Made by a program: the position numbers and the translations under genes
Shown here: piece by piece, positions 828 through 34,814 of the stretch
Position numbering within the stretch: the first letter of the stretch is position 1
How the letters are laid out: each line of letters starts with the position of its first letter
The notes under the pieces: generated by a model
The model's input: the letters and a program-made list of their open reading frames with translations, nothing else
What the model was told of the DNA's origin: nothing
Databases searched by the model: none
Origin: Planotetraspora kaengkrachanensis
GTDB taxonomy: Bacteria; Actinomycetota; Actinomycetes; Streptosporangiales; Streptosporangiaceae
NCBI RefSeq assembly: GCF_016862895.1
Contig: NZ_BONV01000002.1
Location: 310,001-374,000, forward strand
Reading direction: 5' to 3'
Length of the DNA stretch: 64,000 bases

Positions 828-890
828 GGTTCACTCAGCGAACTGGTGCGTGCTACGGTGTCCCACCAGTAGCAGTTCAGTCAATGAACC
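828..890 (+). promoter_or_regulatory. HxlR-type promoter/operator module, copy A
   Basis: This 63-bp block starts with GGTTCACTCAGCGAACT, an imperfect inverted repeat, and ends with the related AGTTCAGTCAATGAACC. Between them is a candidate extended -10, TGCTACGGT (TACGGT at 854-859), with TTCACT at 830-835 as a possible -35 and 18-bp spacing. One palindrome covers the -35 and the other lies downstream of the start, a layout that suits repression. It reads toward the monooxygenase gene at 920 and ends about 30 bp before it. Copy B at 34752-34814 matches 53 of 63 bases on the opposite strand. Confidence 0.75.
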
Positions 891-919
891 GGGTAGGTCG
901 AGCCTGAGGAGGCTGCCCC

Positions 920-1222
920 GTGTACCAGTTCCTCGTCTCCTTCACCGTCCAGGCGGAGCATCGCGACGACTTCGTCCGGGCGGCGAAGAAGACCGCGCGT
1001 GACTCTCTGGCGAGCGAGCCCGGCTCCCACCGGTTCGAGGTCATCGCGGACGAGAACGACCCGAATGTCTTCTACCTGAACGAGGTCTATGCGGACCTCG
1101 ACGCGTTCGACACGCACGCGAGCGGTCCTTACTTCGGCGCGTTCTTCGCCGAGGCCGGCGCCTACGCCGAGGGTCCGGCGTGGCTCATGAGAGGAAACCT
1201 CATCGGCGACGACGCCGCCTGA
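920..1222 (+). CDS. antibiotic-biosynthesis-monooxygenase-fold (quinol monooxygenase-like) protein
   Basis: A 100-residue protein of the small ABM ferredoxin-like fold (YgiN/quinol monooxygenase family). It opens with VYQFLVSFTVQAEHRDDF and contains the family pattern E-P-G-S-H-R-F-E-V and FYLNEVYADLDAFDTHASGPYF, with the usual dimer-forming HASGPYF segment. Such enzymes oxidise quinols or aromatics without a bound cofactor, which fits control by a quinone-sensing HxlR regulator. GTG 920 is preceded by GAGGAGG at 906-912, so the start is well supported. It is the first gene of a four-gene run (monooxygenase, NADPH reductase, SDR, acetyltransferase) behind the module at 828-890. Confidence 0.88.
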   Translation: MYQFLVSFTVQAEHRDDFVRAAKKTARDSLASEPGSHRFEVIADENDPNVFYLNEVYADLDAFDTHASGPYFGAFFAEAGAYAEGPAWLMRGNLIGDDAA

Positions 1223-1262
1223 GTCCTATCCGGCGGCAACACGAGGAAATCGAGAGGCATCC

Positions 1263-2288
1263 ATGTCAGAGACCCCGAGGCGAACCCGCCGCTACGTTCT
1301 CGCGGAGCGCCCCGCCGCGCCCACCGGGCCGCTGGAGGAAGGCGTCCTGCGCTACGAGGAGGACGTTCCCGTGCCGCGGCTCGGATCAGGACAGGTTTTG
1401 GTGAAGGTCGAGTGGATGTCGCTGGACCCCGCCACCCGGAGCTGGATGAACGACACCCCGAGTTCCCTTCCGCCGTCACCGCTGGGCGAGACCATGCGCG
1501 CCCTCGGCGCCGGCACGGTGAGCGCATCGGAGCACCCTGATTTCGTGGTCGGGGAACGGGTGTGCGGATTGCTGGGCTGGCAGGAGGACGCCGTGGTGGA
1601 CGGCTCGAGCCTGCGGCGGGTGCCCGACGGCGTGCCGCTGAACGCCTCCTTGAATGTCCTGGGCATCGCCGGGCAGACCGCCTGGCTGGGGTTGCACGAC
1701 ATCGGGCGGCCGCGGAAGGGCGAGACGGTCGTCGTCACCGCGGCGGCCGGCGGCGTCGGTTCCGTCGCCGTCCAACTGGCGGTCGCCGCCGGCGCACGCG
1801 TGATCGGCGTCGCCGGGACACCGGCCAAGTGTGAGTGGGTGCGGGAACTCGGTGCCGACGAGTGCGTCGACTACCGGGAGGACGACGTGTCGGCGGCGTG
1901 CTCCCGGTTGTGCCCCGACGGAATCGACGTCGTCTTCGACAACGTCGGCGGGGCGATGCTCGACGCCCTGCTCCCGCACATGGCGGTCAACGCCCGTGTC
2001 GTCCTGTGCGGCGCGATCTCCCGGCACGACGGCGGACGTGGCCCTGTTCCTCTGCACAACTGGTTCCACCTGTTGGTCAACAGGGTCCGGATGGAAGCCT
2101 TCATCTACATGGATCACGAGGATCGCTTCGATGAGATCGAAGCCGATCTCCTGCCCCGCCTGCGCGACGGCGGGCTGCGCAGCCGGGAGCACGTGGTCGA
2201 GGGACTGACCGCGGCCCCAGCGGCGCTTCACACGCTCTTCGACGGCACGAACACGGGCAAGCTGCTCGTGCGCGTCGGTCGATCCTGA
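1263..2288 (+). CDS. NADP-dependent MDR oxidoreductase (zinc-free, CurA/PTGR-like)
   Basis: A 341-residue medium-chain reductase. The GroES-like N-terminal half contains VEWMSLDPATRSWMND, typical of the zinc-independent leukotriene B4 dehydrogenase/CurA group; no catalytic or structural zinc ligands are seen. The Rossmann half carries AAAGGVGSVAVQLA (about residues 160-173) and GADECVDYR. These enzymes reduce the C=C bond of enones and related alpha,beta-unsaturated carbonyls with NADPH. It lies 40 bp after the monooxygenase gene and is presumably co-transcribed, so the operon could handle a quinone or enone. The ATG at 1263 follows an AGGAAAT-like weak ribosome site. The exact substrate is unknown. 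Confidence 0.9.
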   Translation: MSETPRRTRRYVLAERPAAPTGPLEEGVLRYEEDVPVPRLGSGQVLVKVEWMSLDPATRSWMNDTPSSLPPSPLGETMRALGAGTVSASEHPDFVVGERVCGLLGWQEDAVVDGSSLRRVPDGVPLNASLNVLGIAGQTAWLGLHDIGRPRKGETVVVTAAAGGVGSVAVQLAVAAGARVIGVAGTPAKCEWVRELGADECVDYREDDVSAACSRLCPDGIDVVFDNVGGAMLDALLPHMAVNARVVLCGAISRHDGGRGPVPLHNWFHLLVNRVRMEAFIYMDHEDRFDEIEADLLPRLRDGGLRSREHVVEGLTAAPAALHTLFDGTNTGKLLVRVGRS

Positions 2289-2395
2289 CCCGCGTCCGCC
2301 GCGCCGCCGAAGACCACCGGCCCGAGCCGTCATCCGGAACGCACGTTCGCTGCGGGGCCCGCTTGAAAAGTCACCAACTGACGAGGAGATCCATC

Positions 2396-3163
2396 ATGTC
2401 GTCCGTGCTCATCACCGGCGCGTCCAAGGGCATCGGCCGAGCCGTCGCGGCCGAGCTGGCACGCCGCGGCCACCGGGTGATCGCCACCGCACGTCGTCCG
2501 GAGACGCTGGCCGACCTGCCCGTCGACCGGCGCCTGCGCCTTGATGTCACTGATCAGGAAAGCGTCGACCAGGCCATCAAGGACGCCGGCGACATCGATG
2601 TGGTGGTCAGCAATGCCGGCGAGACGGTGCGCGCGCCTCTGGAGAGCGTCCCGCTCGCGGAGGTCGAACGGCTCTTTCAGCTCAACACCCTGGGTGCCCT
2701 GCGGGTGGCGCAGGGAGTGCTTCCGGCGATGCGTGAAAGGGGCGCGGGGCACCTCCTCTTCGTCTCCAGCATCCAGGGGCGGCTGGTCCTCCCGATGATC
2801 GGCCCTTATGGAGCCAGCAAATGGGCGCTGGAGGCGCTCGCGGAGACGCTCGCCATCGAGACGCGTCATTTCGGAATCAAGGTGAGTGTGGTGCAGCCCG
2901 GTGTCGTTTCCTCGGGTGGCGGTGGGCGCGCCAAGGTGTTCCTGCAAGAGAACGACCCGTACACCCCGCTGTATGAGGCACTCGATGTCCTCCGTGGCGA
3001 GTCCATCACCCCCGAGGAGGTGGCCACGGCCGTGGCCGACACGATCGAGCAGCCTGAGCCTCCGTTTCGCGTGCCGGTCGGCGCACCGGCCAGGCGGGTC
3101 CTGCAGGCCCGCAAAGAGGCCCCGGAGAGCGAGCCCTTCCTGATGGCGGAAATCAATTGGTAG
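2396..3163 (+). CDS. short-chain dehydrogenase/reductase (SDR)
   Basis: A 255-residue classical SDR. It begins MSSVLITGASKGIGRA with the TGxxxGIG cofactor motif, has SNAG in place of NNAG, the catalytic Ser region LFVSSIQG and the YGASK (YxxxK) pair. ARRPETL after the second strand, with an Arg following the cofactor loop, favours NADP. I chose ATG 2396 because GAGGAG lies at 2383-2388; an in-frame ATG at 2363 would add an unrelated basic extension. It follows the MDR reductase after about 107 bp and overlaps the next gene by seven bases, so translation of that gene may be coupled. Confidence 0.9.
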   Translation: MSSVLITGASKGIGRAVAAELARRGHRVIATARRPETLADLPVDRRLRLDVTDQESVDQAIKDAGDIDVVVSNAGETVRAPLESVPLAEVERLFQLNTLGALRVAQGVLPAMRERGAGHLLFVSSIQGRLVLPMIGPYGASKWALEALAETLAIETRHFGIKVSVVQPGVVSSGGGGRAKVFLQENDPYTPLYEALDVLRGESITPEEVATAVADTIEQPEPPFRVPVGAPARRVLQARKEAPESEPFLMAEINW

Positions 3164-3885
3164 ACGTTGAGCCGTTCAGACCGGAGTCCGGCCAAGCACA
3201 TCCGCTGGACAATTCCGTCTACTCGGCGCTGACCGGGCCGCACGCCCACTTCGCGCAGCGACGGGGCAACGCATTGCGCTACCCGTTGGACATGTCACCG
3301 TTCATGGCGCTGCCGGACTCCCCCGGCGACGCCGACTGGGCGGACATCGCGGCACTCGCCGATCCCGATCGGGGAGTCACGCTGACCGGCCTCACGGTCG
3401 AGCCGCCCGACGGCTGGGAGGTCGTGATGCGGGGCACAGTGCTGCAACTCGTCGACGACGGGATCGCCGCCGCGCCGGACGATGAGGCCGTCACCCTCAC
3501 CCAGGCGGACGTTCCGGAGATGCTCGCCCTGGCCGAACGCACCAAACCGGGGCCGTTCCTGCCGCGCACGATCGAGATGGGCACCTATCTGGGCATCCGG
3601 CACGGCGGGCGCCTGGTGGCGATGGCCGGTGAACGGCTGCGCCCTCCGGGCTGGACGGAAATCAGCGGAGTCTGCACCGACGCGGACCGGCGCGGACAGG
3701 GGTTGGGGACCCGGCTGGTGCTGGCCGTCGCGGCCGGCATCCGGATGCGCGGCGAGACGCCGTTCCTGCATGTGGTCGCGTCCAACACGAACGCCGTCCG
3801 GCTGTACGAATCCCTGGGATTCCGGCTTCGCCGCGCTGCGACCCTTGTGCTCACCCGGCCGCCGGCGGAAACGTCGATCAGCTAG
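3157..3885 (+). CDS. GNAT-family N-acetyltransferase (FR47-like)
   Basis: A 242-residue protein whose C-terminal half is a GNAT domain: SGVCTDADRRGQGLGTRLVL contains the acetyl-CoA pyrophosphate loop R-R-G-Q-G-L-G, followed by the late-strand signature FLHVVASNTNAVRLYESLGF. The N-terminal 110 residues are the poorly conserved half seen in FR47-like proteins. The start is uncertain: the frame opens at TTG 3157, overlapping the SDR stop (TTGGTAG), and there is no strong ribosome site, so coupling to the SDR is likely. It is the last gene of the HxlR-linked run. The acetyl acceptor cannot be told from sequence. Confidence 0.82.
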   Translation: MVDVEPFRPESGQAHPLDNSVYSALTGPHAHFAQRRGNALRYPLDMSPFMALPDSPGDADWADIAALADPDRGVTLTGLTVEPPDGWEVVMRGTVLQLVDDGIAAAPDDEAVTLTQADVPEMLALAERTKPGPFLPRTIEMGTYLGIRHGGRLVAMAGERLRPPGWTEISGVCTDADRRGQGLGTRLVLAVAAGIRMRGETPFLHVVASNTNAVRLYESLGFRLRRAATLVLTRPPAETSIS

Positions 3886-4082
3886 ACGGAGCCGGTCACC
3901 GGACGGGACGTCTCAGGGCCGATCGAACAATTCTCTCCCGAGAGTGAGAAGCGTTCGCGGCAGCTGTCCGCGGTGGACGGTTCAGCCTTCCCCATGGGCG
4001 CAGATGAGCCCCATTACATCTCATCGGCCGAAACGGTTCATTCCCGTAGCGATATATACGGCATGTTTTCTGTAGGTTTGAT

Positions 4083-4118
4083 CCGTTCCGGGGTGCACCT
4101 AGCTACACCCCGGAACGG
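4083..4118. terminator. 13-bp perfect inverted repeat upstream of the YceI gene
   Basis: CCGTTCCGGGGTG at 4083-4095 pairs exactly with CACCCCGGAACGG at 4106-4118 around a 10-nt loop. No U-tract follows. It could end the acetyltransferase transcript, but it stands almost 200 bp past that gene and only about 49 bp before the YceI start, so an operator role for the YceI gene is equally possible. Confidence 0.5.
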
Positions 4119-4166
4119 TAGTCAACCGGCTTCTGGCTGATCGCTCCGCTTTCTAGCGTGGTCGTC

Positions 4167-4724
4167 ATGACGACGACAGAAGAAGCCCGCTCCACGACGT
4201 CTCCGACCCTGTCGCCCACGAATGCCGAGCCCGCCCCTGGCGTTTACCGCATCGACCCTGAGGCCACGGAGATCAGGTTCGCCACACGGCATGTCTTCGG
4301 TCTGCTGCCCGTCACCGGGTCCTTCGCGCTGGACCACGGCGAACTGCGGATCGCCGAGTCCGTCGCGGACTCCACGATCGACGCGGTCGTCCGCGCGGGC
4401 AGCTTCGCCAGCGGCATCGCGGCACGAGACCACAAGGTCAGGTCGGACGTCTACCTCGACGCAGCCGCCCATCCGGAGATCGTCTACCGCGGACTGCGCG
4501 TCGAGCCGTCGTCCGACGGGGCACGGGTGCACGGCACGCTGACGGTCCGCGGCGTGACCCGGCCGGCCGTCCTGACCCTGACCTCCCTCCTCGTCGAGAA
4601 CGGCGTGCTGCGGGCGCAGGCCGAGACGACCGTCGACCGCTACGCCTTCGGCCTGACCCGGGAGAAGGGCATGACGGGGCGCCATTTCCGCCTCTTCCTC
4701 ACGGTCACCGCCACCGCGGACTGA
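4167..4724 (+). CDS. YceI-family lipid-binding-fold protein
   Basis: A 185-residue YceI domain protein. It contains the family signatures Y-R-I-D-P (residues about 27-31), TEIRFATRHVFGLLPVTGSF, DHKVRSDVYLDAAAHPEIVY and GVTRPAVLTLT, covering the extended beta-barrel that binds isoprenoid or other amphipathic ligands in the family. There is no signal peptide, so it should be cytoplasmic, as in many actinobacterial members. ATG 4167 is preferred over GTG 4158. It stands alone, with a strong palindrome about 50 bp upstream (4083-4118). Confidence 0.9.
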   Translation: MTTTEEARSTTSPTLSPTNAEPAPGVYRIDPEATEIRFATRHVFGLLPVTGSFALDHGELRIAESVADSTIDAVVRAGSFASGIAARDHKVRSDVYLDAAAHPEIVYRGLRVEPSSDGARVHGTLTVRGVTRPAVLTLTSLLVENGVLRAQAETTVDRYAFGLTREKGMTGRHFRLFLTVTATAD

Positions 4725-4880
4725 CCTCCCGCGGTCGCATTTCCGGCGGCGCGAGCGCGGCTCCGAACTTCGCTGAAGCGAATTCCCCCGGAAACGGAAG
4801 CGGCGTGAAAAGTGTTACGAGAGGACTTCTAAGTCCATTTGCGCAGCAGTAACGTACCGACATCGGCCAAGGGGGCATTG

Positions 4881-5690
4881 ATGGACAAAGCGATCGACCA
4901 GAATTCAGGGGAGTTACCCGGGGGCGATGAAGGACCGGCTCCAGCACTGCGATTGAAAGGCCTTCATAAGGTCTTCGCCGACAACACCGCGGTCGACCAC
5001 GTCGATCTGGTGGTTCCGCGAGGCTCGTTCTTCGGCCTCGTCGGACCCAACGGCGCCGGCAAGACCACAGCGCTGTCGATGGCCGTGGGCCTGCTCCGAC
5101 CGGACGAGGGCCGGTCCGAGGTGTTCGGCGTCGATGTCTGGTCCGACCCGGTCCAGGCGAAGTCGCTCATGGGCGTCCTGCCGGACGGGCTCGCGATGCC
5201 CGAACGGCTGACCGGCCGGGAGCTGCTGACATTCATCGGCCAACTGCGCGGCATCGCCGACGACGTGCTGGCTCGGCGAACCCAGGATCTGCTCAACGTC
5301 ATGGAGCTCAACGACGCCGAGCGCACCTTGGTCGTCGACTACTCCACGGGCATGCGCAAGAAGATCGGTCTCGCGACCGCGTTGTTGCACGGGCCGCGAC
5401 TGCTCGTCCTCGACGAGCCCTTCGAGGCCGTCGATCCGGTCTCGGCGGCCGCGCTCAAGGCGATACTCGGGCGCTTCGTCGCCTCGGGTGGTTCCGTGAT
5501 CCTCTCCAGCCACGTCATGCCCCTCGTCGAGCAGCTGTGCGACACCGTCGCGGTGATGGCCAAGGGCAGGCTCGTCGCCGCGGGCCCCCTGGACGAGGTG
5601 CGCGGCGACGGCAGCCTGGAGGAGACGTTCGTCCGCCTGGTGGGCGTCGAGGCCGGCGCCTGGGAGGAACTGTCGTGGCTGGCGTCCTGA
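4881..5690 (+). CDS. ABC transporter ATP-binding protein
   Basis: A 269-residue ATPase. Walker A is GPNGAGKT; the signature region is STGMRKKIGLATAL, with the S-x-G-x sequence replacing a canonical LSGGQ; Walker B is LLVLDEPFEAVD; the switch His lies in ILSSHV. It couples ATP hydrolysis to an ABC-2-like export channel. ATG 4881 follows AAGGGGG at 4869-4875. The stop overlaps the start of the permease gene, so the two make a coupled pair. A perfect palindrome (GGACTT-CT-AAGTCC, 4823-4836) upstream could be an operator. Confidence 0.92.
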   Translation: MDKAIDQNSGELPGGDEGPAPALRLKGLHKVFADNTAVDHVDLVVPRGSFFGLVGPNGAGKTTALSMAVGLLRPDEGRSEVFGVDVWSDPVQAKSLMGVLPDGLAMPERLTGRELLTFIGQLRGIADDVLARRTQDLLNVMELNDAERTLVVDYSTGMRKKIGLATALLHGPRLLVLDEPFEAVDPVSAAALKAILGRFVASGGSVILSSHVMPLVEQLCDTVAVMAKGRLVAAGPLDEVRGDGSLEETFVRLVGVEAGAWEELSWLAS

Positions 5691-7549
5691 TCCGGATGAA
5701 GCTCGCGATCATCCAGCACTCCATGACGGGCGGCAAGGCCGCCTGGATGATCATTGGTGGCCTTTTCGGCATCGCCTTCGCGGTCGCCACCATCTGGCTG
5801 AGCGTGCTGGACAGCCTCTCCCCGGCCGTGGTGGCCGACCTGCTCGCCGCGGTCTACGTCATGTGGATGCTCGGCTGGATCGTCGGGCCGGTCTGGGGCG
5901 GCTCCACGGTGCTGCGGGTCGACCACTTCGCACTGCTGTCCGTGCCGCACCGCAAGCTCGCCGTAGGACTGCTCTGTGCGGGCTTCGTCGCCATCACCAC
6001 GGTGGTGACGTTCCTGGCGTTCGTGAGCTTGATCGTTTACGGCGCCCGCCTCGGGTTCGTGCCCGCGCTCATCGCGGCGCCCGCGGTCGTTCTGCAGTTG
6101 GTCTTCGTCGTCCTGTTGTCGCGGGTCGCCATGGTCGTCTTCGGCGTCGTGGCGAAGTCCAGGGTCGGTGCCGCGTTCACCGGCGTGCTCATCGCCGCGT
6201 TGATGGTCCTCGCCCAGTCCGGTTGGATGGTCGCCGTCGCGATCCAGGTCTCCGGCGTGCTCGACGACGGCTTCGGATCTGGTTTCTCCACCACGGTGCG
6301 GGCCATCCCGTCCGGCTGGGGCCTCGTCGCCGTCGAGTCGGCCGCCCGGGGCGACTGGGCGTTGGCGCTCGGCGCGCTCGCCGGGCTGGCACTGCTCATC
6401 GTGTTGCTGCTGCTCGGCTGGAGCCGGAGCCTCGGCACCCCACGGCGGGCGCGGATCACGATCCGCGGCTCGCGCAACGCCGCGGTCTCCAGCGGCGGGC
6501 TGTTCGCCGGGCGTTCCGGCACGGTCCTGCGCAAGGAGTTGCGCACCTGGTGGCGCGACCCGCTGCGCACCCAGACGGTGTTCGTGCCGCTGGTCTGGGC
6601 CCTGGGCACGACCCTGCTGCCGCTCACCTTCGGCGAGAAACTGCTGCTGCCCTGGACCGCACCGGCGCTCGCCGTCATGGCCGGCGCCGCCATGTGCAAT
6701 ATCTACGGCCTGGACGGGACCGCGCTGTGGATGACCCTGCTCACCGGCAGCGAGCGTGCGGACCTGCGCGGCAGGCAGCTGGCCTACCTTCTCATCTTCG
6801 GCCCGATCACGCTGTTGATCGCGGTGGTCTTCACCGCCTGGAGCGGATTCGCCTACGCCTGGCCCTGGGTGCTGGCCCTGACACCGGCGATGCTCGGCGG
6901 GCAGGCGGGGCTCGGCGCTCTCATCTCCGTGGCGGCGCTCTCACCCGGCCCCGACGCCCACAAGCGCCCAGAGAATCCGCTGGAACACGGCAACACGACA
7001 GGCCAGGCCAACCTCATGTTCTGGGGCGGGCTGCTGACAGGGATCCCCCCGGCCGCGTTCCTCATTCTCGGCGCCGCCTACGACAACGCGTTCCTGTTGT
7101 GGACGGCCGTCCCGGTGGGGGTGGCCACGGGCGTCTTCCTCGCCTGGTGGCTGGGACGGGTCGCGATTCGCAGCCTTCGGGTGCGCGGGCCGGAGATGCT
7201 CTTCCTCATGCGCACCGGGCGCAACAGCACGCCGGTCAAGATCGAGATGCCGAAGCGTGACGCGTGGGTCGCCCTCACCGGCTGGACGCTGGGTTCGATC
7301 GCGCTCTTCCCCCAGGGAATCGTACCGATGATCTTCCTGCTGATCGGTCTCGACGTGAAGTCGTGGTTCCTGCCGCTCTATCTCGCCGGTCCGCTCCAAT
7401 GGCCCAGCGCCATCGCCATGGTCCTCCTCGGCTCCTACCTGTACTACATCGCCATCAAGCTGAGCGTCCGCAAGAAGCCGGCATCCCCGCCTGACGACGA
7501 CACCACCGCTCCCCCGCCCGGGCAGAGCCAGGAGCTCGAATCCGTCTAG
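5675..7549 (+). CDS. ABC-2-like multi-pass permease partner
   Basis: A 624-residue membrane protein with roughly a dozen hydrophobic segments, for example WMIIGGLFGIAFAVATIWL near the start and LGSYLYYIAIKLSV near the end, closing with a short Pro/Asp-rich cytoplasmic tail. The large size, with an internal soluble stretch around residues 255-300, suggests two fused ABC-2 half-units. GTG 5675 is chosen because GGAGG lies at 5663-5667; it overlaps the ATPase gene by 16 bases. It probably forms an exporter with that ATPase; the substrate is unknown. Confidence 0.88.
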   Translation: MAGVLIRMKLAIIQHSMTGGKAAWMIIGGLFGIAFAVATIWLSVLDSLSPAVVADLLAAVYVMWMLGWIVGPVWGGSTVLRVDHFALLSVPHRKLAVGLLCAGFVAITTVVTFLAFVSLIVYGARLGFVPALIAAPAVVLQLVFVVLLSRVAMVVFGVVAKSRVGAAFTGVLIAALMVLAQSGWMVAVAIQVSGVLDDGFGSGFSTTVRAIPSGWGLVAVESAARGDWALALGALAGLALLIVLLLLGWSRSLGTPRRARITIRGSRNAAVSSGGLFAGRSGTVLRKELRTWWRDPLRTQTVFVPLVWALGTTLLPLTFGEKLLLPWTAPALAVMAGAAMCNIYGLDGTALWMTLLTGSERADLRGRQLAYLLIFGPITLLIAVVFTAWSGFAYAWPWVLALTPAMLGGQAGLGALISVAALSPGPDAHKRPENPLEHGNTTGQANLMFWGGLLTGIPPAAFLILGAAYDNAFLLWTAVPVGVATGVFLAWWLGRVAIRSLRVRGPEMLFLMRTGRNSTPVKIEMPKRDAWVALTGWTLGSIALFPQGIVPMIFLLIGLDVKSWFLPLYLAGPLQWPSAIAMVLLGSYLYYIAIKLSVRKKPASPPDDDTTAPPPGQSQELESV

Positions 7550-7643
7550 GGAGTGTCACGAGCGTGGTCGCACCCGTCAACGCCGACCCACGGTATGCGG
7601 GATGACATGGCCTGTTACCTTGCGATATGTGGACCGTCTGGAA

Positions 7644-9229: not shown

Positions 9230-9427
9230 GTGAAACTCCTGGTGGTGATGCATCGTGAACAGGTCGAGTTCACCACCGGGAGTGCCGGGAACCAATGAGC
9301 ACTCAAGTATCGGGCGATGCGCTCAGAGGTATGGATCGCGGCATCGGCGCCGCGTCCCCGGGCGATCCGACGGCCCGGCCACACCGTCGCCACGCGGGCT
9401 TTCCCCGCCTACCCGCATAGTCTCGGT

Positions 9428-13018: not shown

Positions 13019-13020
13019 TG

Positions 13021-25623: not shown

Positions 25624-25625
25624 AT

Positions 25626-26083: not shown

Positions 26084-26204
26084 GGCTCCTTCGGGTGCGG
26101 TCCTGTTCTCGCGGTAGAAGGAGTCGACCGGCGCCATCTGAGGGCCACATGCTGCCGAGGTCGCCGCTCTCCCTTCGCGTCCGCCGGCCTGGCATACTTC
26201 GCGC

Positions 26205-26972: not shown

Positions 26973-27077
26973 AAGACCGTCCAGGGAACCTACTGGCGTC
27001 TTTGCGGATCGCACCGCAGCCGGCTCCACGCGTACGTCACCTTGTGGGACCCGCCCATGCCGGCACGGGGAGGAATC

Positions 27078-28256
27078 GTGCGCGTGATCGGGCTGATGTC
27101 GGGCACGTCCTACGACGCGATCGACGCCGCGGCGGCCGAGCTGACTCTCCTGGGTGACGAACTGGTGATGCGCCCGATGGGCGGGCTCAGCCTCCCCTAT
27201 CCGCAGGAGCTGCGAACGCGGATCGCCGCCGTGCTGCCTCCGGCGGCGACGACGGCCGCGGACGTCTGCCGGCTCGACACCGGCATCGGCCGGTCGTTCG
27301 CGGACGCGGCCGCCCGCGCCCTCGACGAGCTCTGTGGCGGAGCCGCCGACCTGGTGGTCTCACACGGGCAGACCGTGTTCCACTGGGTCGACGACGGTGT
27401 CGTCCGGGGCACCCTGCAACTCGGCCAGCCTGCCTGGATCGCCGAGGCGACCGGGCTGCCCGTCGTCTCCGACCTGCGCGGCCGGGACGTCGCGGCCGGC
27501 GGGCAGGGCGCGCCGCTGGTGAGCATGCTCGACACGCTGCTGCTGCGGGCCCGGGCCGGCGTCCCCGCGGCCCTCAACCTCGGCGGCATCGCCAACGTCA
27601 CCGTCGTCCCGCCGGGCGCCGACCCGGTCGCCTTCGACACCGGCCCGGCCAACGCGCTGGTCGACGCGGCCGTACGGCATTTCACCGGCGGCGCCCGCGA
27701 CCACGACGAGGACGGTCGCGGCGCGGCCGCGGGCCGGGTGGACCAGGGCCTGCTGGCGTGGCTGCTCGACGATCCGTATTACCGCAGGTCCGCGCCGAAG
27801 AGCACCGGCAAGGAGCACTTCCACCTGCCGTACCTGCTCGAGGCGCTGGCCGCGCGGCCCGTGGCGAATCCTGACGACGTCCTGGCCACGCTCACCCGGC
27901 TGACCGCGGTGACCGTCGCGGACGCCTGCCGGGCCCATGGCGTCACCGAGCTCGTCGTGTCCGGCGGCGGCGTCCGTAACCCGGAGATGATGCGGGTGAT
28001 CGGGGAGGAACTGCCGGGCGTACGGCTGCCGTCCAGCGACGACCTCGGGGTGCCGTCCGCCGCGAAGGAGGCCCTGGCCTTCGCGGTGCTCGGTTTCCTG
28101 ACCGTGCACGGGCTGCCCGGTCAGGTGCCCTCCTGCACCGGGGCGCGCCATGCCACACCGCTGGGCTGTGTCACGCCGGGCCGCCATCCGCTGCGCCTGC
28201 CGGCGCCGGCGGCCGTACCACCGCGGCTGCTCCGCGTCGCCGGGCCCCCGGTATAG
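27078..28256 (+). CDS. anmK: anhydro-N-acetylmuramic acid kinase
   Basis: A 392-residue sugar kinase of the ASKHA fold: VIGLMSGTSYDAIDA (phosphate 1 loop), VSHGQTVFHW, VVSDLRGRDVAAGGQGAPLV, AALNLGGIANVT, FDTGPANALVDA, SGGGVRNPEMM and LGVPSAAKEALAFAVLG all match AnmK. It opens and phosphorylates 1,6-anhydro-MurNAc to MurNAc-6-phosphate in cell-wall recycling. YDAID replaces the commoner DG-x-D. GTG 27078 follows GGGAGGAATC. Its stop overlaps the first of three DasR-like boxes before the hexosaminidase gene, so cell-wall amino sugars are handled by both genes. Confidence 0.93.
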   Translation: MRVIGLMSGTSYDAIDAAAAELTLLGDELVMRPMGGLSLPYPQELRTRIAAVLPPAATTAADVCRLDTGIGRSFADAAARALDELCGGAADLVVSHGQTVFHWVDDGVVRGTLQLGQPAWIAEATGLPVVSDLRGRDVAAGGQGAPLVSMLDTLLLRARAGVPAALNLGGIANVTVVPPGADPVAFDTGPANALVDAAVRHFTGGARDHDEDGRGAAAGRVDQGLLAWLLDDPYYRRSAPKSTGKEHFHLPYLLEALAARPVANPDDVLATLTRLTAVTVADACRAHGVTELVVSGGGVRNPEMMRVIGEELPGVRLPSSDDLGVPSAAKEALAFAVLGFLTVHGLPGQVPSCTGARHATPLGCVTPGRHPLRLPAPAAVPPRLLRVAGPPV

Positions 28257-28259
28257 ACC
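28250..28259 (+). promoter_or_regulatory. DasR-like box 1
   Basis: GGTATAGACC overlaps the anmK stop codon. It is a gapped GGT/ACC palindrome close to the Streptomyces DasR core (TGGTCTAGACCA). Two more exact copies follow at 28303 and 28391. Confidence 0.6.
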
Positions 28260-28302
28260 GGCTGTGGCGACAGCCGCCGTTGTTGCGAATCCGATACATG
28301 GC

Positions 28303-28312
28303 GGTATAGACC
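28303..28312 (+). promoter_or_regulatory. DasR-like box 2, overlapping a candidate -35
   Basis: GGTATAGACC again, followed by A. The last six bases (TAGACC, 28307-28312) stand 18 bp before TACCCT (28331-28336) and could be the -35 of the hexosaminidase promoter, so a bound GntR-type repressor would block transcription. Confidence 0.65.
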
Positions 28313-28345
28313 AAAACTTTAACTTCTGTTTACCCTGACAGCCTG

Positions 28346-28366
28346 AGATCCCTCCATAAGGGATCT
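28346..28366 (+). terminator. short perfect hairpin in the leader of the hexosaminidase gene
   Basis: AGATCCCT (28346-28353) and AGGGATCT (28359-28366) form an 8-bp stem with a 5-nt loop. It has no U-tract. It could end the anmK transcript or structure the 5' leader of the next gene. Confidence 0.4.
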
Positions 28367-28390
28367 ATCCACCGCCCATGGCCGCCAACC

Positions 28391-28400
28391 GGTATAGACC
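28391..28400 (+). promoter_or_regulatory. DasR-like box 3
   Basis: Third exact GGTATAGACC, followed by A. It would lie downstream of the inferred transcription start, as a roadblock or second operator. The rest of 28257-28605 holds the hairpin above, a 14-codon open frame at 28433-28477 and the GH20 ribosome site. Confidence 0.6.
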
Positions 28401-28605
28401 AGCCACCCCCCGAAAGCAAGGCGGTAATCGAGATGAACAAGAAGATCGCCGGGACGGTCGGTCCCCTGGCCGCGTGAACTCCCCCACCACCACATCAGGA
28501 AGCTGCACCGACGCTGCAGCGCCCAACGGGTCGCCGGACATGTCCAACTGATGCCCGGACGCGGCCCGTGCTGGAGGTATGCGGTACCCCGATTTAAGGA
28601 GTGAC

Positions 28606-31605
28606 GTGAAGATCTCGTTCCTATCGGCGAAACGCGAGCAGACAAGGGGCCGTGGCGGAAGCCGACGACCTCGGGCCCGCTCGGTCTCTGCTCTGACATT
28701 CGGTGCGCTCCTCGCCACATCCCTCACCGGTGTCATGGCGAACGCCGCACAGGCCGACACGGCGTCGACCGCGCCGGCATCACCCCAGATCGTTCCTCCG
28801 GTTTCGGTGAGCACCACGCCCGAGAGCGTCAACCTCGCCCTCCTGCCGGGTGTGGTCGCCTCCGCCAAGTCGCAACGTACGACCGCGCCCGCCGCGACGT
28901 ACGCGCCCGCCAACGCCGTCGACGTCTTCGTCCACAACGGCTGGACCTCGAACTACGCGTCGGTCGGCGGCGGCTACAACCCGGCTCAGGACTGGTTCCA
29001 GGTCAAGCTGGCCACGCCCGCCCCGGTCTACGAGGTGTACAGCCTCTGGACGTCACCGGCCAAGCCGACGGAGTACGACCTGCAGGTCGCCACGGACGCC
29101 GACTGCCAGACGTGGACGACGGTCACCCACGTGGTGAATCCGAGCGACAAGGATTCCCATGTGATCGACCGCAAGGACCCGATCTCCTGCGTCCGGATGC
29201 AGGCCCTGGCCACGAATTCCACGACCGGATACACGATCAACGAGTTCGAGGTGTGGTCCGGTCCCAAGCCGGCGCCGGTCGTGGGTCAGATCATCCCCGT
29301 GCCCGTGCAGCAGACGCCCGGCACCGGTCAGCCGTGGGCGCTCACGGCCAAATCCCGGATCGTGGTCTCCGACAGCGGACTCGCCGGCACGGCTGAGGTT
29401 CTCGCGGCCTCCCTGCGGCCGGCCACCGGGTACCTCCTCCCCGTGGTGACAGGTTCCGCCACCGCCGCCGACATCGCCCTCGCCCTCGGGCCGGTGCCCG
29501 GCGTCCCACAGGGCAACGAGGTCGCCGCGGCCGAGGGCTACTCCCTCACGGTGTCGAGTGCGGGCGTGAAGATCGTGGCCCCGAAGGCGCACGGCCTGTT
29601 CAACGGCTTCCAGAGCCTTCGGCAGTTGTTGCCCGCGGCGACCTACTCGCCTTCTGTCGGCGTGGGGCCGTGGACGGCACAGCCGATAACGGTCGTGGAC
29701 TATCCCCGCTATGCGCACCGAGGCCTCCAACTCGATCCCGCCCGTAACTTCATGACGGTGGCCGAAGTGAAGTCCATGATCGACCAGGTGGCGGCGTTGA
29801 AGGGCGACCGCCTGCACCTGCACCTGAGCGACAGCCAGTCCTGGCGCCTTGAGATCAAGGGCTACCCGACGCTGGACGGCACCGGGTGCAACGGCGCGAA
29901 CTGCATCGCGGGTTTCTACACGCAGGAGGACTTCAAGGGCATCGTCAAGTACGCGGCCGACCGGTTCATCGAGGTCGTCCCCGAACTGGAGGGCCCGGCC
30001 CATGCCACGGCTGCGGTCACGGCCCTGGGCGGCCGCGCGGTCATGGGTTGCCAGGGCCAGACCCAGAGCGACCGGTTCTGCACCAATCCGAACGACCCGG
30101 CCAGTGCGCGGGCCCTCGCGTTCTGGCGAGACGCGATCGCGCAGCTTGCCGCGATCTCTCCCTCCTCCATCATCCACATCGGTGGGGACGAAGCCATCGG
30201 GATGCCCCACGAGGACTACAAGTGGTGGATCCGGCAGATGGAGATCATCGTCAACGACAACGGCAAGCGGCTGATGGGCTGGAACCCGGCGCTCGAGGGA
30301 TACGCACCCGGTTCCACCTCCATCAACCACTACTGGTCCGACTACACCGGCGGTGGTCCCGCTCTCATCAAGCCTGAGTGGTTCAACCAGGGCCGGGACG
30401 TCATCGTGACCCCGGAATGGAACGCCTACCTCGACTTCGGGTATGACGGGTCGCCCGGCAGGACGCCGCGAACGGAACTGCTCCAGGCCTACTCGTGGGA
30501 CCCGGAATGGGTGTACGAGAAGTACCGGTCAGTCTGGGCCCAACCCGCCTACGGCGGTCCGAAGGCTGAGGACATCCTCGGTATCGAGGCGCCCATCTGG
30601 GGCGAGCAGATGCGTGGACTGGCCACCAACGAGTACATGGTCTTCCCGAGGCTGGCGGGAATCTTCGAGAAGGCCTGGTCCCCCAAGGTGCTCTCCCAGG
30701 ACTACGACGCATACCGGCAGCGGCTCAGCGTCGCCGGGACCCGGTGGGCGTTCGCGAACGTGAACTACGGCTCCATCTCCCAGGTCAGCTGGGGCACGGC
30801 GGCGATGGGGACGCTCACCCGTTTCGGCGCGGACAGGACCCTGAGCGACGCGCCCCTGGCGCGTCTGGCCGCCGGCTCGATTCCGCCCGGTGCGTCCACG
30901 GCCGTCATCGATTGGGGCGACGGATCCCCGACGGAATCGGCCGCCATCGCGGGACGTGATTACGTGGCGAGCCAACGGCAGGGCAGAAGCCTGATGTCGG
31001 TCAGCGGCAGCCACACCTATCCGGCGGACGAGGTGTACCACGGAACCGTCACCTACAGTTACCAGGACCAGACCTGGGCCGTGCCGTTCACAGCGACCAG
31101 CGTCCCGGCCTGCACAACGATGATCACCGGGACCCACTCTGGCCCGTTGACCGTCTCGTCGGGTTTCACGTGCCTCGAAGACGCGACGATCACCGGACCG
31201 GTGACCGTGCGTTCAGGCGCCGGGCTTTACGCGTCCGGGTCCGAGGTACGCGGTCCGCTGACGGCGTCCGGGGCCGTCGACGTTCTGCTGTGCGGTACCA
31301 CGGTGTCCGGGCCGGCCGCCCTGAACGGTGGAGCGCGGGTCTGGCTCGGCAACCACAACGGGGACTGCGCCCCGGCGACGATCAAGGGTCCGGTGACGGT
31401 CACCGGCACGACGGGTCACGTGACGATCGACGGCTCGACGGTCGCCGGCCCGCTCGTCCTGCAGAACAACACGGCGGCGACGACCGTCGCCGGCAACCAC
31501 ATCGGCGGGCCGCTGTCGTGCGCGGGGAACTCCCCCGCGCCGAGCAACGACGGCCGGCCCAACACCGTGTCCGGCCCGAAGTCTGGGCAGTGCGCCAGGC
31601 TGTAG
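28606..31605 (+). CDS. secreted GH20 beta-N-acetylhexosaminidase with F5/8-type carbohydrate module
   Basis: A 999-residue exoenzyme. A long basic signal peptide ends near ANAAQA. Residues ~75-215 resemble an F5/8 type C (discoidin) module (NAVDVFVHNGWTSNYAS), ~220-345 the GH20b domain and ~350-690 the GH20 barrel with RGLQLDPARNFMTV, HLHLSDSQSWRLEI, HIGGDEAIG (catalytic Asp528-Glu529), HYWSDYTGG and IWGEQM. A PKD-like segment (AVIDWGDGSP) and a Gly/Thr repeat tail with GPLTVSSGF-like repeats follow. It removes terminal GlcNAc from chitin or glycans outside the cell. AAGGAGTGAC precedes GTG 28606. Three DasR-like boxes upstream suggest GlcNAc-linked control. Confidence 0.93.
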   Translation: MKISFLSAKREQTRGRGGSRRPRARSVSALTFGALLATSLTGVMANAAQADTASTAPASPQIVPPVSVSTTPESVNLALLPGVVASAKSQRTTAPAATYAPANAVDVFVHNGWTSNYASVGGGYNPAQDWFQVKLATPAPVYEVYSLWTSPAKPTEYDLQVATDADCQTWTTVTHVVNPSDKDSHVIDRKDPISCVRMQALATNSTTGYTINEFEVWSGPKPAPVVGQIIPVPVQQTPGTGQPWALTAKSRIVVSDSGLAGTAEVLAASLRPATGYLLPVVTGSATAADIALALGPVPGVPQGNEVAAAEGYSLTVSSAGVKIVAPKAHGLFNGFQSLRQLLPAATYSPSVGVGPWTAQPITVVDYPRYAHRGLQLDPARNFMTVAEVKSMIDQVAALKGDRLHLHLSDSQSWRLEIKGYPTLDGTGCNGANCIAGFYTQEDFKGIVKYAADRFIEVVPELEGPAHATAAVTALGGRAVMGCQGQTQSDRFCTNPNDPASARALAFWRDAIAQLAAISPSSIIHIGGDEAIGMPHEDYKWWIRQMEIIVNDNGKRLMGWNPALEGYAPGSTSINHYWSDYTGGGPALIKPEWFNQGRDVIVTPEWNAYLDFGYDGSPGRTPRTELLQAYSWDPEWVYEKYRSVWAQPAYGGPKAEDILGIEAPIWGEQMRGLATNEYMVFPRLAGIFEKAWSPKVLSQDYDAYRQRLSVAGTRWAFANVNYGSISQVSWGTAAMGTLTRFGADRTLSDAPLARLAAGSIPPGASTAVIDWGDGSPTESAAIAGRDYVASQRQGRSLMSVSGSHTYPADEVYHGTVTYSYQDQTWAVPFTATSVPACTTMITGTHSGPLTVSSGFTCLEDATITGPVTVRSGAGLYASGSEVRGPLTASGAVDVLLCGTTVSGPAALNGGARVWLGNHNGDCAPATIKGPVTVTGTTGHVTIDGSTVAGPLVLQNNTAATTVAGNHIGGPLSCAGNSPAPSNDGRPNTVSGPKSGQCARL

Positions 31606-31657
31606 ACGGACGAGATGACCGGCCGAGGCGTCAAGCCCGGTAGGTGAACTCCGGCCG

Positions 31658-31696
31658 CGGCGGCCCTCCCGCATCGTGAGATGGGGAGGGCCGCCG
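31658..31696. terminator. bidirectional terminator hairpin
   Basis: CGGCGGCCCTCCC (31658-31670) pairs with GGGAGGGCCGCCG (31684-31696), and the loop itself pairs CATC with GATG. It lies between the convergent hexosaminidase and nitronate monooxygenase genes and suits both. Confidence 0.8.
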
Positions 31697-31738
31697 TGAC
31701 CCTGTCCGACCATTCGGAACGGCGCCGACGGCTGGGTG

Positions 31739-32698
31739 TCAGCGGCGTCCCGCTCGGGTCAGGGCGTCCTGCGCCTGGGCGGCCATGGCGGCGACCAGTT
31801 CCTCCGCCGAGGGCAGGTCGGTGATGAGGTCGACGGCCTCGCCCGCCCATACCGGCAGCGGGGGCACCGCGCCGCGTGCCACGTCGTCCTGGTAGGCCTG
31901 ACGGGCTTGCGGATCGGCGGCGAGCTCGGCCTCCCGGCCGCGCCAGCGGTCGAGGTAAGGATGGCCGAGGGTACGGGCGGGGTACTTCGACGGCCATCGG
32001 GAGCCGCGCGCGATGTCCAGCACGGTGCTGCGCTCGGTGTCCTGCCCCCGGCCCTCGATGATCGCCTTGGTGATCACGGGGTCGACCAGGGCCTCGGTGG
32101 TGGCCTGGAAGCGGGTGCCGATGAGCGCTCCGGCGGCGCCCAGCACGAGAGCCGCCGCCACACCGCGTCCGTCGGCGATCCCGCCCGCCGCCAGTACCGG
32201 CACCGGAGCCACGAGATCCACCACCGCGGGCACGAACGGCAAGGTGGACCGCCCGCGCGCGGCTCCGTGCCCCCCGCTCTCGGTTCCCTGCGCCACGATC
32301 ACGTCGGCGCCCAGGTCCACCGCCAGCCTGGCCTCATCCAGATCGGTGACCTGGAGGATCAGCAGGGCGCCTGCCCTGCGGACATGCTCCGCGTATGGGC
32401 TCGGATCGCCGAAGGACAACATCACGGCGCTCGGGCCGTAGCTCAGTGCCAGCTCCACCGCGGCGAGATCGATCCCCCAGGTCAGGAATCCGACACCCCA
32501 CGGCCATTCAGTGCTCGCGACGATCGGCACCTCACGTGCCAGCCACTCCGGGTCACCGTACGCACCGCCCAGAATTCCGAACCCGCCGCCGCGGGAGACG
32601 GCTGCGGCAAGCGCGCCACCGGCCGACCCGCCCATCGGCGCCAGCGCGATCGGGTGCCGCACGCCGAGCAGTTCCGTGAACGCCGTCGACAACGCCAT
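31739..32698 (-). CDS. nitronate monooxygenase (NMO/2-nitropropane dioxygenase family)
   Basis: A 319-residue flavin TIM barrel: LGVRHPIALAPMGGSAGGAL, GFGILGGAYGD, VIVAQGTESGGHGAARG, PVLAAGGIADGRGVAAALVL and GTRFQATTEA. The QGTESGGHG loop carries the conserved His of this family and binds FMN phosphate with AAGGI. It oxidises alkyl nitronates such as propionate 3-nitronate. ATG 32698 chosen because the family starts right before the first strand. It is followed by a shared terminator; the gene appears to stand alone. Confidence 0.9.
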   Translation of the reverse strand: MALSTAFTELLGVRHPIALAPMGGSAGGALAAAVSRGGGFGILGGAYGDPEWLAREVPIVASTEWPWGVGFLTWGIDLAAVELALSYGPSAVMLSFGDPSPYAEHVRRAGALLILQVTDLDEARLAVDLGADVIVAQGTESGGHGAARGRSTLPFVPAVVDLVAPVPVLAAGGIADGRGVAAALVLGAAGALIGTRFQATTEALVDPVITKAIIEGRGQDTERSTVLDIARGSRWPSKYPARTLGHPYLDRWRGREAELAADPQARQAYQDDVARGAVPPLPVWAGEAVDLITDLPSAEELVAAMAAQAQDALTRAGRR

Positions 32699-32811
32699 GC
32701 CCACATCATGCCGCCGCATCCGGCGGGGAGGATCCCCGACGCCGCTGCCGGGCGTGCGAGGAGTTGACGGAGACGGGGTCCATGGGAGGGAGAGTTCGGA
32801 ATCATGGCCGT

Positions 32812-33720
32812 ATGAGGGAGATGGGCAGGGGTGCGCTGGTCGGGCTGGCGGTCGGGGCTGTGGAGGCCGTCATGTGGGCGGCAGGCGCAGATTGGGACGG
32901 GCACTCGGGCGTGCGCGGCCCTTATTCCCTCGGGATGATGTCGGCGGTTTTCCTGATCGGCTCGGTCGTGGCGGCCCTGGTCCGGTTGCGCCGCTGGCCC
33001 CTCGTCGCGTTCGCCGGCGAAATCGCCACACTGGCCCTGGGCCAGGCTCTATGGAGGTTCGTGCCTGAGACCACCTTCTATGGCTTCGACCGGTCACTGC
33101 TCGGTGGCGTGCACCTGATGTCGGCGGTGGCCGGGTTCACCGTCGCCGCCTGGGCGCCGGCTTCCACAAGGCGGTGGTGGTCCAGGATCGCCGTGCTCGG
33201 GGTACTCGCCGCACTCTGCGTGCTGGCCGTTCCCTTGGAGGAGCCCGCCCGGCGCTGGCACCTGGCCCGCGCCTTCGAGTTGCTCGAAGTCCCACTGGTG
33301 GCGCCCGGCATCGCGGGGCACAGGTTGTCCGAGGTTCAAGCGCCGACCGTCGGCGGGGCGGGCGAACCGGTGATCCAGCTGGAATACCGACGCGTCGGTG
33401 CGGAGACGGCGGGCGGGAGTCGCCTGGCCATCCAGGTGATCGTACGCCGGGTCTCGGCCGCGACCGCCGCGGAGGCGTGCGCGACGCCGTACTACGCCGA
33501 GTCGTGGCAGGACGGGAGCGGACCCTGCCGCGCAGCCTCCCGGGATCGGTGGGTCCGCTACGGATGGGAGGGGCGGGTCGCGGTGTTCACCCAAAGCGGT
33601 GGCTCGTTGGTCGAACTCGAAAGCCATGGCGTCGAGGAGACGGCCCTCCTGGCGGCCGCCGAGACGATCCGGCCGACCACCGCCGAGACTCTCGCGGCGC
33701 AGGTCCACCCGGTGCGGTGA
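32812..33720 (+). CDS. membrane-anchored hypothetical protein
   Basis: A protein of about 302 residues. Four hydrophobic segments in the first 150 residues (ALVGLAVGAVEAVMW, MMSAVFLIGSVVAALV, LMSAVAGFTVAAWA, IAVLGVLAALCVLAV) are followed by a soluble beta-rich domain of ~140 residues, likely outside the cell, with VRRVSAATAAEAC and PCRAASRDRWVRYGWEGRV. It contains two Cys pairs that could form a disulfide. No family recognised. ATG 32812 is preceded only by a weak ribosome site. Confidence 0.75.
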   Translation: MREMGRGALVGLAVGAVEAVMWAAGADWDGHSGVRGPYSLGMMSAVFLIGSVVAALVRLRRWPLVAFAGEIATLALGQALWRFVPETTFYGFDRSLLGGVHLMSAVAGFTVAAWAPASTRRWWSRIAVLGVLAALCVLAVPLEEPARRWHLARAFELLEVPLVAPGIAGHRLSEVQAPTVGGAGEPVIQLEYRRVGAETAGGSRLAIQVIVRRVSAATAAEACATPYYAESWQDGSGPCRAASRDRWVRYGWEGRVAVFTQSGGSLVELESHGVEETALLAAAETIRPTTAETLAAQVHPVR

Positions 33721-33768
33721 GCTCTCCCCTGTATGGAGCCCGCCCTGTGAATCACACGGGCCGGCGGG

Positions 33769-34677
33769 TCAGGGAGCGGGGACGAAGTAGGGGCCGCTGA
33801 TTTCGAAGTCGGGCTTGTTGTCGAGGACGAACTGCTCGACGGACAGCGGGGCGCGCTGACCGATCTTCTCGATGTTGTCGTTCGTGCCGGCGAACACGCC
33901 GTTCTGGTAATCGACGGCGACGTTGCTCAGGTGCTGGATGCGGTGCGCGGTCAGGCCGCGTTCCGCCATGGCCGAGGCGAACTCCTCGACGCTGATCGGC
34001 TCGTAGTGCACCGGGATGCCGAGCGTGCCGGACATGGCCCCGGCGATGCCATGGTGGTTCAGTTCGACCGGGCCGTGCAGGGTGTAGACCGCGCGGTCGT
34101 GCGGTTCGGGGTCGATCAGCACCGTGGCGATCACGTGCGCCTGGTCGACCGAGGCGATCGGCGCGTGCCGGCCTTCGCCGAACGGAAGCCGCAGATACCC
34201 CTCGCCGTCTCGCAGCTCCCACCACAACTTCAGCCATTCGGCGAAGAACGTCGGCCGCAGGTGCGCGGTGAGCATGCCGGTCCGGTCGAGTAAGCGCTCG
34301 CACAGCCAGTGCTGCCGGGCGGCGTCGCTGCCCGCCTCACGGCGGGCGGAGATCTGCGACATGTTGACCACGGACCGGACGCCGGCCTCGGTCGCCGCCT
34401 GGGCGAAGTAGGTGGTCGCCTCGATGAGGCCCGGGGCGATCGGGTGGCACAGGTAGGCGCCGGTGACGCCCTGCAGCGCCGCGGTCACACCGTCCAGGTC
34501 GTGAAAGTCCGAGACGACCACCTCGGCGCCGGCTTCGGCCAGCGAGCGGGAGCGCTCGTCCTCGCGGTGCACCATTGCGCGGACGCGGTGACCGTGCTGC
34601 AGCAGCAGGCGGATCGTGCCGCTCCCGGTCCTACCGGTCGCGGCGGTGACCAGGAACAGCCTGTCGTCGTTGGCCAT
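33769..34677 (-). CDS. NmrA-like NAD(P)-binding protein
   Basis: A 302-residue atypical SDR. LFLVTAATGRTGSGTIRLLL gives the NmrA-type glycine motif (TAATGRTG), followed by RVRAMVHREDERS, ADVVVSDFHDL-like DFHDLDGV and GAYLCHP. It lacks the YxxxK pair, so it may be a redox sensor or an atypical reductase (QorB/NmrA). ATG 34677 follows GAAAGGTG. Its upstream region contains the 63-bp module copy B (34752-34814), which ties it to the HxlR regulator at 275-808. Confidence 0.9.
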   Translation of the reverse strand: MANDDRLFLVTAATGRTGSGTIRLLLQHGHRVRAMVHREDERSRSLAEAGAEVVVSDFHDLDGVTAALQGVTGAYLCHPIAPGLIEATTYFAQAATEAGVRSVVNMSQISARREAGSDAARQHWLCERLLDRTGMLTAHLRPTFFAEWLKLWWELRDGEGYLRLPFGEGRHAPIASVDQAHVIATVLIDPEPHDRAVYTLHGPVELNHHGIAGAMSGTLGIPVHYEPISVEEFASAMAERGLTAHRIQHLSNVAVDYQNGVFAGTNDNIEKIGQRAPLSVEQFVLDNKPDFEISGPYFVPAP

Positions 34678-34751
34678 CTGAACACCTTTCGTAGGACTAC
34701 GTGCCGCCAGGCAAAGGGAGAGCGGCGTCGCAGCTTCCGCAATACCCGAAT

Positions 34752-34814
34752 GGTTCACTTACTGAACTGCACCTGGTCAGACACCGTAGCACGCGTTAGT
34801 TCACTGAGTGAACC
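34752..34814 (-). promoter_or_regulatory. HxlR-type promoter/operator module, copy B
   Basis: Read on the minus strand this 63-bp block has the same length and order as 828-890: a first palindrome (perfect here, GTTCACTCAGTGAAC), a central GCGTGCTACGGTGTC and a second palindrome ending GTGAACC. Fifty-three of 63 bases match copy A without gaps. It directs transcription to the NmrA gene. No HxlR gene accompanies this copy. Confidence 0.75.

Follow-up and report, generated by a model that had tools for sequence, protein, structure and literature searches.

An HxlR/DUF24 regulator and a two-dyad promoter module found twice, 34 kb apart, in Planotetraspora kaengkrachanensis: a probable small repressor circuit

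A stretch of 64,000 nucleotides from Planotetraspora kaengkrachanensis (contig NZ_BONV01000002.1, positions 310,001 to 374,000; hereafter the window) carries a 63-bp module twice, once beside the gene of an HxlR/DUF24 regulator (hxlR) and once some 34 kb away, in front of a gene for an NmrA-like protein. Does one HxlR protein control both places, as an earlier note on this DNA had proposed, and if so, how did its two targets come to lie so far apart? The comparison reported here indicates that the locus is probably a small, self-regulated HxlR/DUF24 repressor circuit, of an ordinary kind and with an unusually clear comparative record. The full model, in which a dimeric HxlR repressor sits on two operators per module and is released through Cys12, two units are co-induced and the second module was split off, is given a probability of about 0.82; its binding, repression, promoter elements, start sites, inducer and direction of rearrangement are all predictions from sequence, whereas the repeat and its uniqueness in the genome, the linkage with hxlR in relatives, the enrichment and spacing of the dyads and the invariant cysteines can be read directly from the sequences.

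The two modules, copy A (828–890, plus strand) and copy B (34752–34814, minus strand), align without gaps with 53 of 63 bases identical, as had been claimed, and the similarity drops to background at both edges. By comparison, the best ungapped 63-mer between copy A and the rest of the window, among the matches listed, has 32 of 63 identities, and the modules match their own opposite strands at 34 of 63 positions. When a 74-base module query was run against the whole genome (8,766,364 bp in 96 contigs, with the window at 310001–374000 of contig 2), copies A and B alone were found, with E values of 3.0e-32 and 6.3e-13, the next match having an E value of at least 3.66, and a two-dyad pattern scan returned the same two places. 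Genome-wide searches, of a kind that the earlier note had suggested, yielded these two copies. Each copy consists of two 15-bp dyads of the form GTTC-N7-GAAC, here called O1 and O2, so that all four palindromes described as bracketing a common core are indeed there; O1 of copy B is a perfect odd palindrome (GTTCACT-C-AGTGAAC), and the other three dyads each have one mismatched arm pair. The shared core, GCGTGCTACGG, is likewise present in both copies, but it is better read as an extended −10 element (TG-C-TACGGT) than as a further binding site. Gene calls and Pfam agree with the description of copy A as lying between the HxlR gene and a monooxygenase/MDR/SDR/GNAT operon, and the gene context of copy B agrees with its placement before an NmrA-like gene, without an HxlR gene of its own.

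Strong evidence for a single regulator comes from the relatives. Among 60 related genomes (own genome included), HxlR orthologues of at least 85% identity occur in six, and these six are among the eight genomes with a module match; two module copies were found in five of the six at the search threshold, and the second copy of the sixth (G001) was seen by matrix scan. In G009, one of the other 54, a diverged module lies next to an HxlR gene with 48% identity. In six relatives, namely four Planotetraspora species, Streptosporangium subroseum and one further genome, the copies flank hxlR, and the nearest A–B dyads are 859–2770 bp apart, versus 33,878 bp in the window. As a single hxlR gene has both copies in its vicinity in these relatives, control of both by the one HxlR protein encoded at 275–808 is well supported, and the co-occurrence of orthologue and module, together with a dyad that appears to mark the clade, further upholds the earlier proposal.

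The relatives also suggest how the separation arose. Read in the orientation of the window, the P. mira and P. silvatica loci begin with NmrA, copy B and TetR; next come a gene resembling saccharopine dehydrogenase (a label taken from the reading frame, with no match in Pfam or NCBIfam), hxlR, copy A and an oxidoreductase operon. P. phitsanulokensis shows NmrA, copy B, hxlR and copy A, with no TetR match, and P. thailandica and S. subroseum have two genes, an unknown one and one for an alpha/beta-hydrolase, between copy B and NmrA. In the window, the two blocks stand in the opposite order relative to the relatives. All six relatives examined, including two from outside the genus, have the compact form. 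The simplest reading of the 34-kb gap is therefore a derived split of one locus, and rearrangement of such a single locus would explain why copy B lacks its own HxlR gene. An assembly error in the 96-contig draft is an improbable source of the 34-kb separation, since nothing points to one and the window contains no N.

Conservation of the dyad was followed in the best 80 of 194 relatives of the protein found by peptide patterns; counts by matrix and strict pattern use all 80 loci returned, and counts over 78 loci leave out L077, where no dyad was found, and L104, which lacks one at the place of O1. A matrix scan of up to 140 bp upstream of the hxlR homologues found at least one dyad in 79/80 loci and at least two in 59/80. 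The strict pattern GTTCRNTNANYGAAC gave 123 matches in the 8,800 bp upstream of the 80 homologues versus 13 in the other 494,297 bp, with at least one upstream match in 75/80 loci and at least two in 48/80, and from this enrichment upstream of homologues binding of the dyad by an HxlR dimer is predicted. Across 394 sampled genomes of the class, a double dyad was present in 23, whereas the reversed control pattern was present in none; with one locus checked per genome, the dyads have an HxlR gene as neighbour at 22 of 23 loci, or at 21 of 22 once the own genome is set aside. Copy B, which shares its genome with the checked window locus (L176), is the one further listed double dyad without an adjacent hxlR. 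These counts suggest that the dyad marks the clade of this HxlR.

Departures from the usual arrangement were also seen. The G009 locus (L125, 8390–8482) has three dyads 39 bp apart before its HxlR gene of 48% identity, a triple-operator version. At L175 (G417:C1:338020–338082), three GTTCAGTnnCTGAAC-type dyads follow one another with a regular 24-bp period, with no HxlR match in the 3-kb locus. A further sequence, GTCCAGTNCGTGAAC, recurs in L066, L067, L075 and other Streptomyces loci, mostly at about 4690–4970 and thus about 1.7–2.8 kb after the HxlR start; it has the same 4-N7-4 length and is possibly coding sequence.

The position of the dyads relative to predicted promoter elements indicates how they might act. 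In copy A, O1 (GTTCACTCAGCGAAC, 829–843, plus strand) contains TTCACT on the plus strand and TTCGCT on the minus strand, possible −35 elements of both divergent promoters. It is followed by a predicted extended −10 element of the ABM (antibiotic biosynthesis monooxygenase) operon promoter (TGCTACGGT, 851–859, plus strand) and by O2 (GTTCAGTCAATGAAC, 875–889, plus strand), which would lie at about +10 to +24 relative to the expected start. Copy B repeats this layout on the minus strand, with O1 (GTTCACTCAGTGAAC, 34799–34813, the perfect dyad), the predicted extended −10 of the NmrA promoter (TGCTACGGT, 34783–34791) and O2 (GTTCAGTAAGTGAAC, 34753–34767); the NmrA start was taken as the ATG at 34677, and an upstream GTG at 34758 lies inside O2. 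The element between O1 and O2 fits TGn-TAnnnT in both copies, TTCACT of O1 lies 18 bp away from it in each, and TGCTAC is invariant in 14/14 aligned modules. On the minus strand of copy A, TTCGCT in O1 is followed after 16 bp by TAGAAT (815–820), the putative −10 of hxlR at an offset of 23 from O1, which ends 6 nt before the hxlR ATG and therefore suggests a leaderless hxlR mRNA. Because TTCACT and TTCGCT both lie in O1 of copy A, this one dyad would cover the −35 regions of the two divergent promoters. At copy B, the 52 bases that extend outward from O1 contain no TANNNT, and no divergent gene lies there.

The same layout recurs at the homologue loci, and the promoter reading rests on this conservation and spacing. 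An extended −10 (T[GA]NTANNNT) follows O1 in 56/78 loci, versus 1.1% of shuffled stretches; in those 56, TANNNT starts 23–26 bases after the first O1 base, and in 40 of them at 24, which corresponds to a 17-bp spacer. On the hxlR side, TANNNT ends 6–7 nt before the ATG in 64/78 loci. The O1–O2 spacing ranges from 33 to 48 bp with a mode of 45 (29/58), so that O2 would fall near or just past the expected start wherever a −10 is present, and with spacings so variable, strict helical phasing is probably not required.

The regulator gene (275–808, minus strand) encodes a 177-residue winged-helix protein of the HxlR/DUF24 family, with a PF01638 match at E 1.3e-19 and a score of 70.2 bits against a gathering cut-off of 20.8. 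Cys12, His114, Cys127 and Cys130 are invariant in 81/81 sequences (the window protein and the 80 homologues), counts that lean towards invariance because one search peptide included Cys127. An AlphaFold2 model with 38 sequences (mean pLDDT, the predicted per-residue confidence, 85) gave eight PDB matches at E ≤ 0.001, all chains of PA1607, PA1374 and YodB, which agrees with a shared fold, with whole-chain root-mean-square deviations of 12.9–14.2 Å against PA1607 and PA1374; HypR, HxlR and QsrR were matched more weakly (E 0.001–0.01). The segment 110–143, a confidently modelled C-terminal part with a CxxC motif, holds the invariant His114, Cys127 and Cys130 and is possibly a metal site or a second redox site in this HxlR clade. 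Of the features of YodB, the N-terminal cysteine is represented by Cys12, whose reactivity is predicted, and the 4-N7-4 palindromic operator by GTTC-N7-GAAC, whereas a counterpart of the second cysteine, Cys101, is absent, as no cysteine lies between residues 12 and 127. The Cys-x-Lys motif of Bacillus subtilis HxlR is likewise absent, the window protein having Cys12-Ser13-Leu14.

These observations can be assembled into the following model. HxlR would be a dimeric repressor binding the 15-bp GTTC-N7-GAAC, and each target promoter would be sandwiched, with O1 over the −35, the extended −10 TGCTACGGT in the middle and O2 just past the start, so that two dimers would block both binding and escape of the polymerase. 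Since O1 of copy A also carries the putative −35 of the divergent hxlR, the same dimer would also repress the gene of the regulator. Attack on Cys12 by an electrophile or oxidant would release HxlR, and the ABM-MDR-SDR-GNAT operon and, 34 kb away, the NmrA-like gene would be switched on together. Copy B would formerly have lain 1–3 kb from copy A and been separated from it by a rearrangement in this lineage. The positions of the sites favour repression, Cys12 speaks for a thiol switch, and the families of the targets suggest a role in detoxifying electrophiles; from the invariant Cys12 and these families, we infer a quinone, an aldehyde or another electrophile as the inducer.

Several results weigh against this model, in addition to the leaning of the cysteine counts. 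A strict sigma-70 scan (Escherichia coli-type consensus) found no promoter at copy A or B, and the spacer in the window is 18 bp, versus a modal 17 bp among the homologue loci. One dyad or none was found by matrix scan in 21/80 homologue loci, and no such −10 follows O1 in 22/78. The hxlR-side −10 lies at 23–26 from O1 in 33/78 loci, and it is there only that a shared −35 is plausible; it lies at 33–34 in 29/78 and elsewhere or nowhere in 16. The O1–O2 spacings show no evident helical phasing. With respect to the link between dyad and regulator, the exception among the 23 double-dyad loci, L175 (G417), has no HxlR gene, and one of the 60 relatives, G058, matches the module weakly (E 0.003) although no HxlR is listed for it. 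The link to NmrA is weakened by two of seven other sampled genomes with NmrA homologues (G106, G340), which carry a dyad-bearing HxlR elsewhere, so that NmrA is not an apparent target there.

The genes behind the two copies bear on what the circuit might respond to. Copy A is followed by genes for an ABM-domain protein, the putative first target (920–1222, plus strand, PF03992), an MDR/zinc-type NADPH oxidoreductase resembling curcumin and prostaglandin reductases (1263–2288, plus strand, PF16884/PF00107, with NF058644 below its cut-off), a short-chain dehydrogenase (SDR; 2396–3163, plus strand, PF00106) and a GNAT acetyltransferase (3157–3885, plus strand, PF08445/PF00583). The putative second target, behind copy B, is an NmrA-like NAD(P)-binding protein of 302 residues (33769–34677, minus strand, PF05368, E 8e-20), with orthologues of 88–92% identity in four congeners. 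At the loci of NmrA homologues of 48–59% identity in the other sampled genomes, the dyad was present in 0/7, so that the NmrA link holds for close relatives and not for NmrA proteins at large; three of these seven loci lie near a different HxlR gene (34–36% identity).

The cargo also varies among the relatives. The gene directly behind copy A encodes an ABM protein in P. mira, S. subroseum and G013, as it does in the window, whereas P. silvatica and P. phitsanulokensis have there a different SDR, 38–40% identical to the window SDR. A Pfam search with seven proteins of relatives identified the P. silvatica gene as an SDR and assigned the divergent gene to MFS in a Streptomyces (L066) and an Amycolatopsis (L052) locus, to ROK in another Streptomyces locus (L055) and to DUF302 in a Mycobacterium locus (L096). 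Since L055 and L096 have one dyad only, their targets are a guess from position. The dyad thus appears to persist while the neighbouring gene changes.

This variation, from ABM and SDR to an MFS transporter, ROK and DUF302, would fit a circuit that answered to one specific natural product or precursor, in self-protection or tailoring, rather than to general quinone or aldehyde stress, and genes of the MFS and ABM types often stand next to antibiotic pathways. Such a specific signal deserves serious consideration, though it is judged less likely than not to be the true one, as the presence of Cys12 in 81/81 sequences fits a thiol switch.

A second alternative concerns the sign of regulation. 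B. subtilis HxlR, which belongs to the same Pfam family, is described in PMC7835342 as a formaldehyde-responsive activator that gains DNA binding through a Cys–Lys bridge, and the window protein could likewise activate both promoters, as does that protein with its formaldehyde-cross-linked Cys11 and Lys13. The invariant, N-terminal Cys12 stands at the matching place. However, the matching lysine is missing: Leu14 lies two residues after Cys12, so that the Cys–Lys bridge is absent in the window protein. Moreover, O1 over the presumed −35 and O2 near or past the presumed start, in both copies and at the two-dyad homologue loci with a −10, suit repression, and activation is considered unlikely.

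Copy B could also be read by another regulator or be a decaying relic, given the TetR-type gene directly upstream of it (34939–35712) and the 33 HxlR-domain matches in the genome. Of these matches, 30 loci were inspected, the three without a locus being left out, and the dyad pair occurs at the hxlR locus of the window only. Two other paralogue loci have a single upstream GTTC-N7-GAAC, and neither fits the strict pattern in its inner letters, which speaks against a paralogue. The TetR protein was rejected as regulator of copy B, because P. phitsanulokensis (L038, G002) and G013 have copy B but no TetR match by tblastn within the stretches covered. Near the TetR gene, moreover, three congeners share a palindrome-like site of another kind. 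Copy B is preserved no less well than copy A, and its O1 is a perfect dyad, which speaks against a relic. Another reader of copy B, or none, is therefore quite improbable, and control of copy B by the HxlR protein at 275–808 is preferred. Lastly, a mobile element, random repeat or chance similarity can practically be discarded, since, although repeats this long may be mobile, only two copies were found in the genome, their sharp edges coincide with the operator ends, and six relatives keep both of them, close to hxlR and ahead of NmrA or its operon.

Some further sequences in these loci merit a remark of their own. By eye, TAACTTACTAAGAGTAAGTTA was seen upstream of the TetR gene, at 35716–35736, and similar sites occur in the P. 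mira, P. silvatica and P. thailandica stretches (L115, L122, L123); it is possibly a TetR operator. Of the two single paralogue sites, that of L139 (GTTCCCCGGATGAAC) lies about 210 bp before the HxlR domain, and that of L142 (GTTCCCTCAGGGAAC, 1410–1424, C6:186659–186673) about 76 bp before it, perhaps as a sister operator code with different inner letters.

How large, then, is the regulon? The 15-bp pattern with up to two mismatches has 25 sites (per strand) in the own genome, versus 16 for the reversed control, and with zero or one mismatch it finds the four module dyads and one other site only. A larger regulon was rejected on these counts, with few near-perfect sites beyond the module dyads, and, the genome having yielded no double copy beyond these two, the regulon is apparently very small, in keeping with the earlier claim. 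The other site, the single dyad GTTCTCTCAGTGAAC with one mismatch (C9:116339–116353; L011, 1501–1515), stands about 37 bp before a thiolase-like gene (a label by eye). Its 3-kb locus has no HxlR match and no double site, and by eye no TANNNT at the right distance; it was treated as chance or as a site of another regulator.

Among known systems, YodB, the MarR/DUF24 repressor of B. subtilis that responds to quinones and diamide, shares the domain family and fold (5hs7 match) and an N-terminal cysteine with the window protein. As given in PMC8063818, YodB has Cys6 and the operator TACT-N7-AGTA, which resembles GTTC-N7-GAAC in having 4-bp half-sites 7 bp apart. The half-site letters are unlike, however, Cys101 has no equivalent in the window, and the window HxlR has an extra C-terminal CxxC segment; the window also has paired operators around the promoter, YodB's own layout being left out of this comparison. 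The closest solved structures by sequence and fold are PA1607 and PA1374 (2f2e, 4gcv); the 4gcv alignment reaches the C-terminal extension, but its stretch opposite the CxxC segment has no cysteines. In E. coli, the regulator gene ytfH is divergent from qorB, which encodes an NAD(P)H:quinone oxidoreductase, and YtfH is 32% identical to the window HxlR over 91 residues (E 6.6e-7). In contrast, the window NmrA has no meaningful BLASTP similarity to QorB, and the intergenic palindrome is CTTAC/GTAAG versus GTTC/GAAC. QorR of Corynebacterium glutamicum presumably resembles the window in family and gene arrangement, and it is not known to have a second target unit. It is an actinobacterial redox regulator of a quinone oxidoreductase, according to PMC6306002.

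A full-text search of open-licence papers found no operator described for actinobacterial HxlR proteins. The present analysis provides a testable operator (GTTC-N7-GAAC, in its strict form GTTCRNTNANYGAAC) and a promoter layout for a set of them, and the comparison shows how a two-unit regulon would arise from the split of one locus. More tentatively, and with a good deal of doubt, the regulator–operator pair may stay constant among actinomycetes as the genes under it are swapped. The 60-bp sandwich would then act as a portable cassette, and copies such as B would keep a detoxification gene under control after a move over tens of kilobases. A single 15-bp dyad would, in part of the clade, be both operator and shared −35 of two back-to-back promoters, and Cys12 together with His114, Cys127 and Cys130 may give a sensor with two inputs, an electrophile and a metal or redox signal. 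The operator itself allows genome-based prediction of regulons in this clade, among whose targets there may be MFS efflux genes of Streptomyces and Amycolatopsis.

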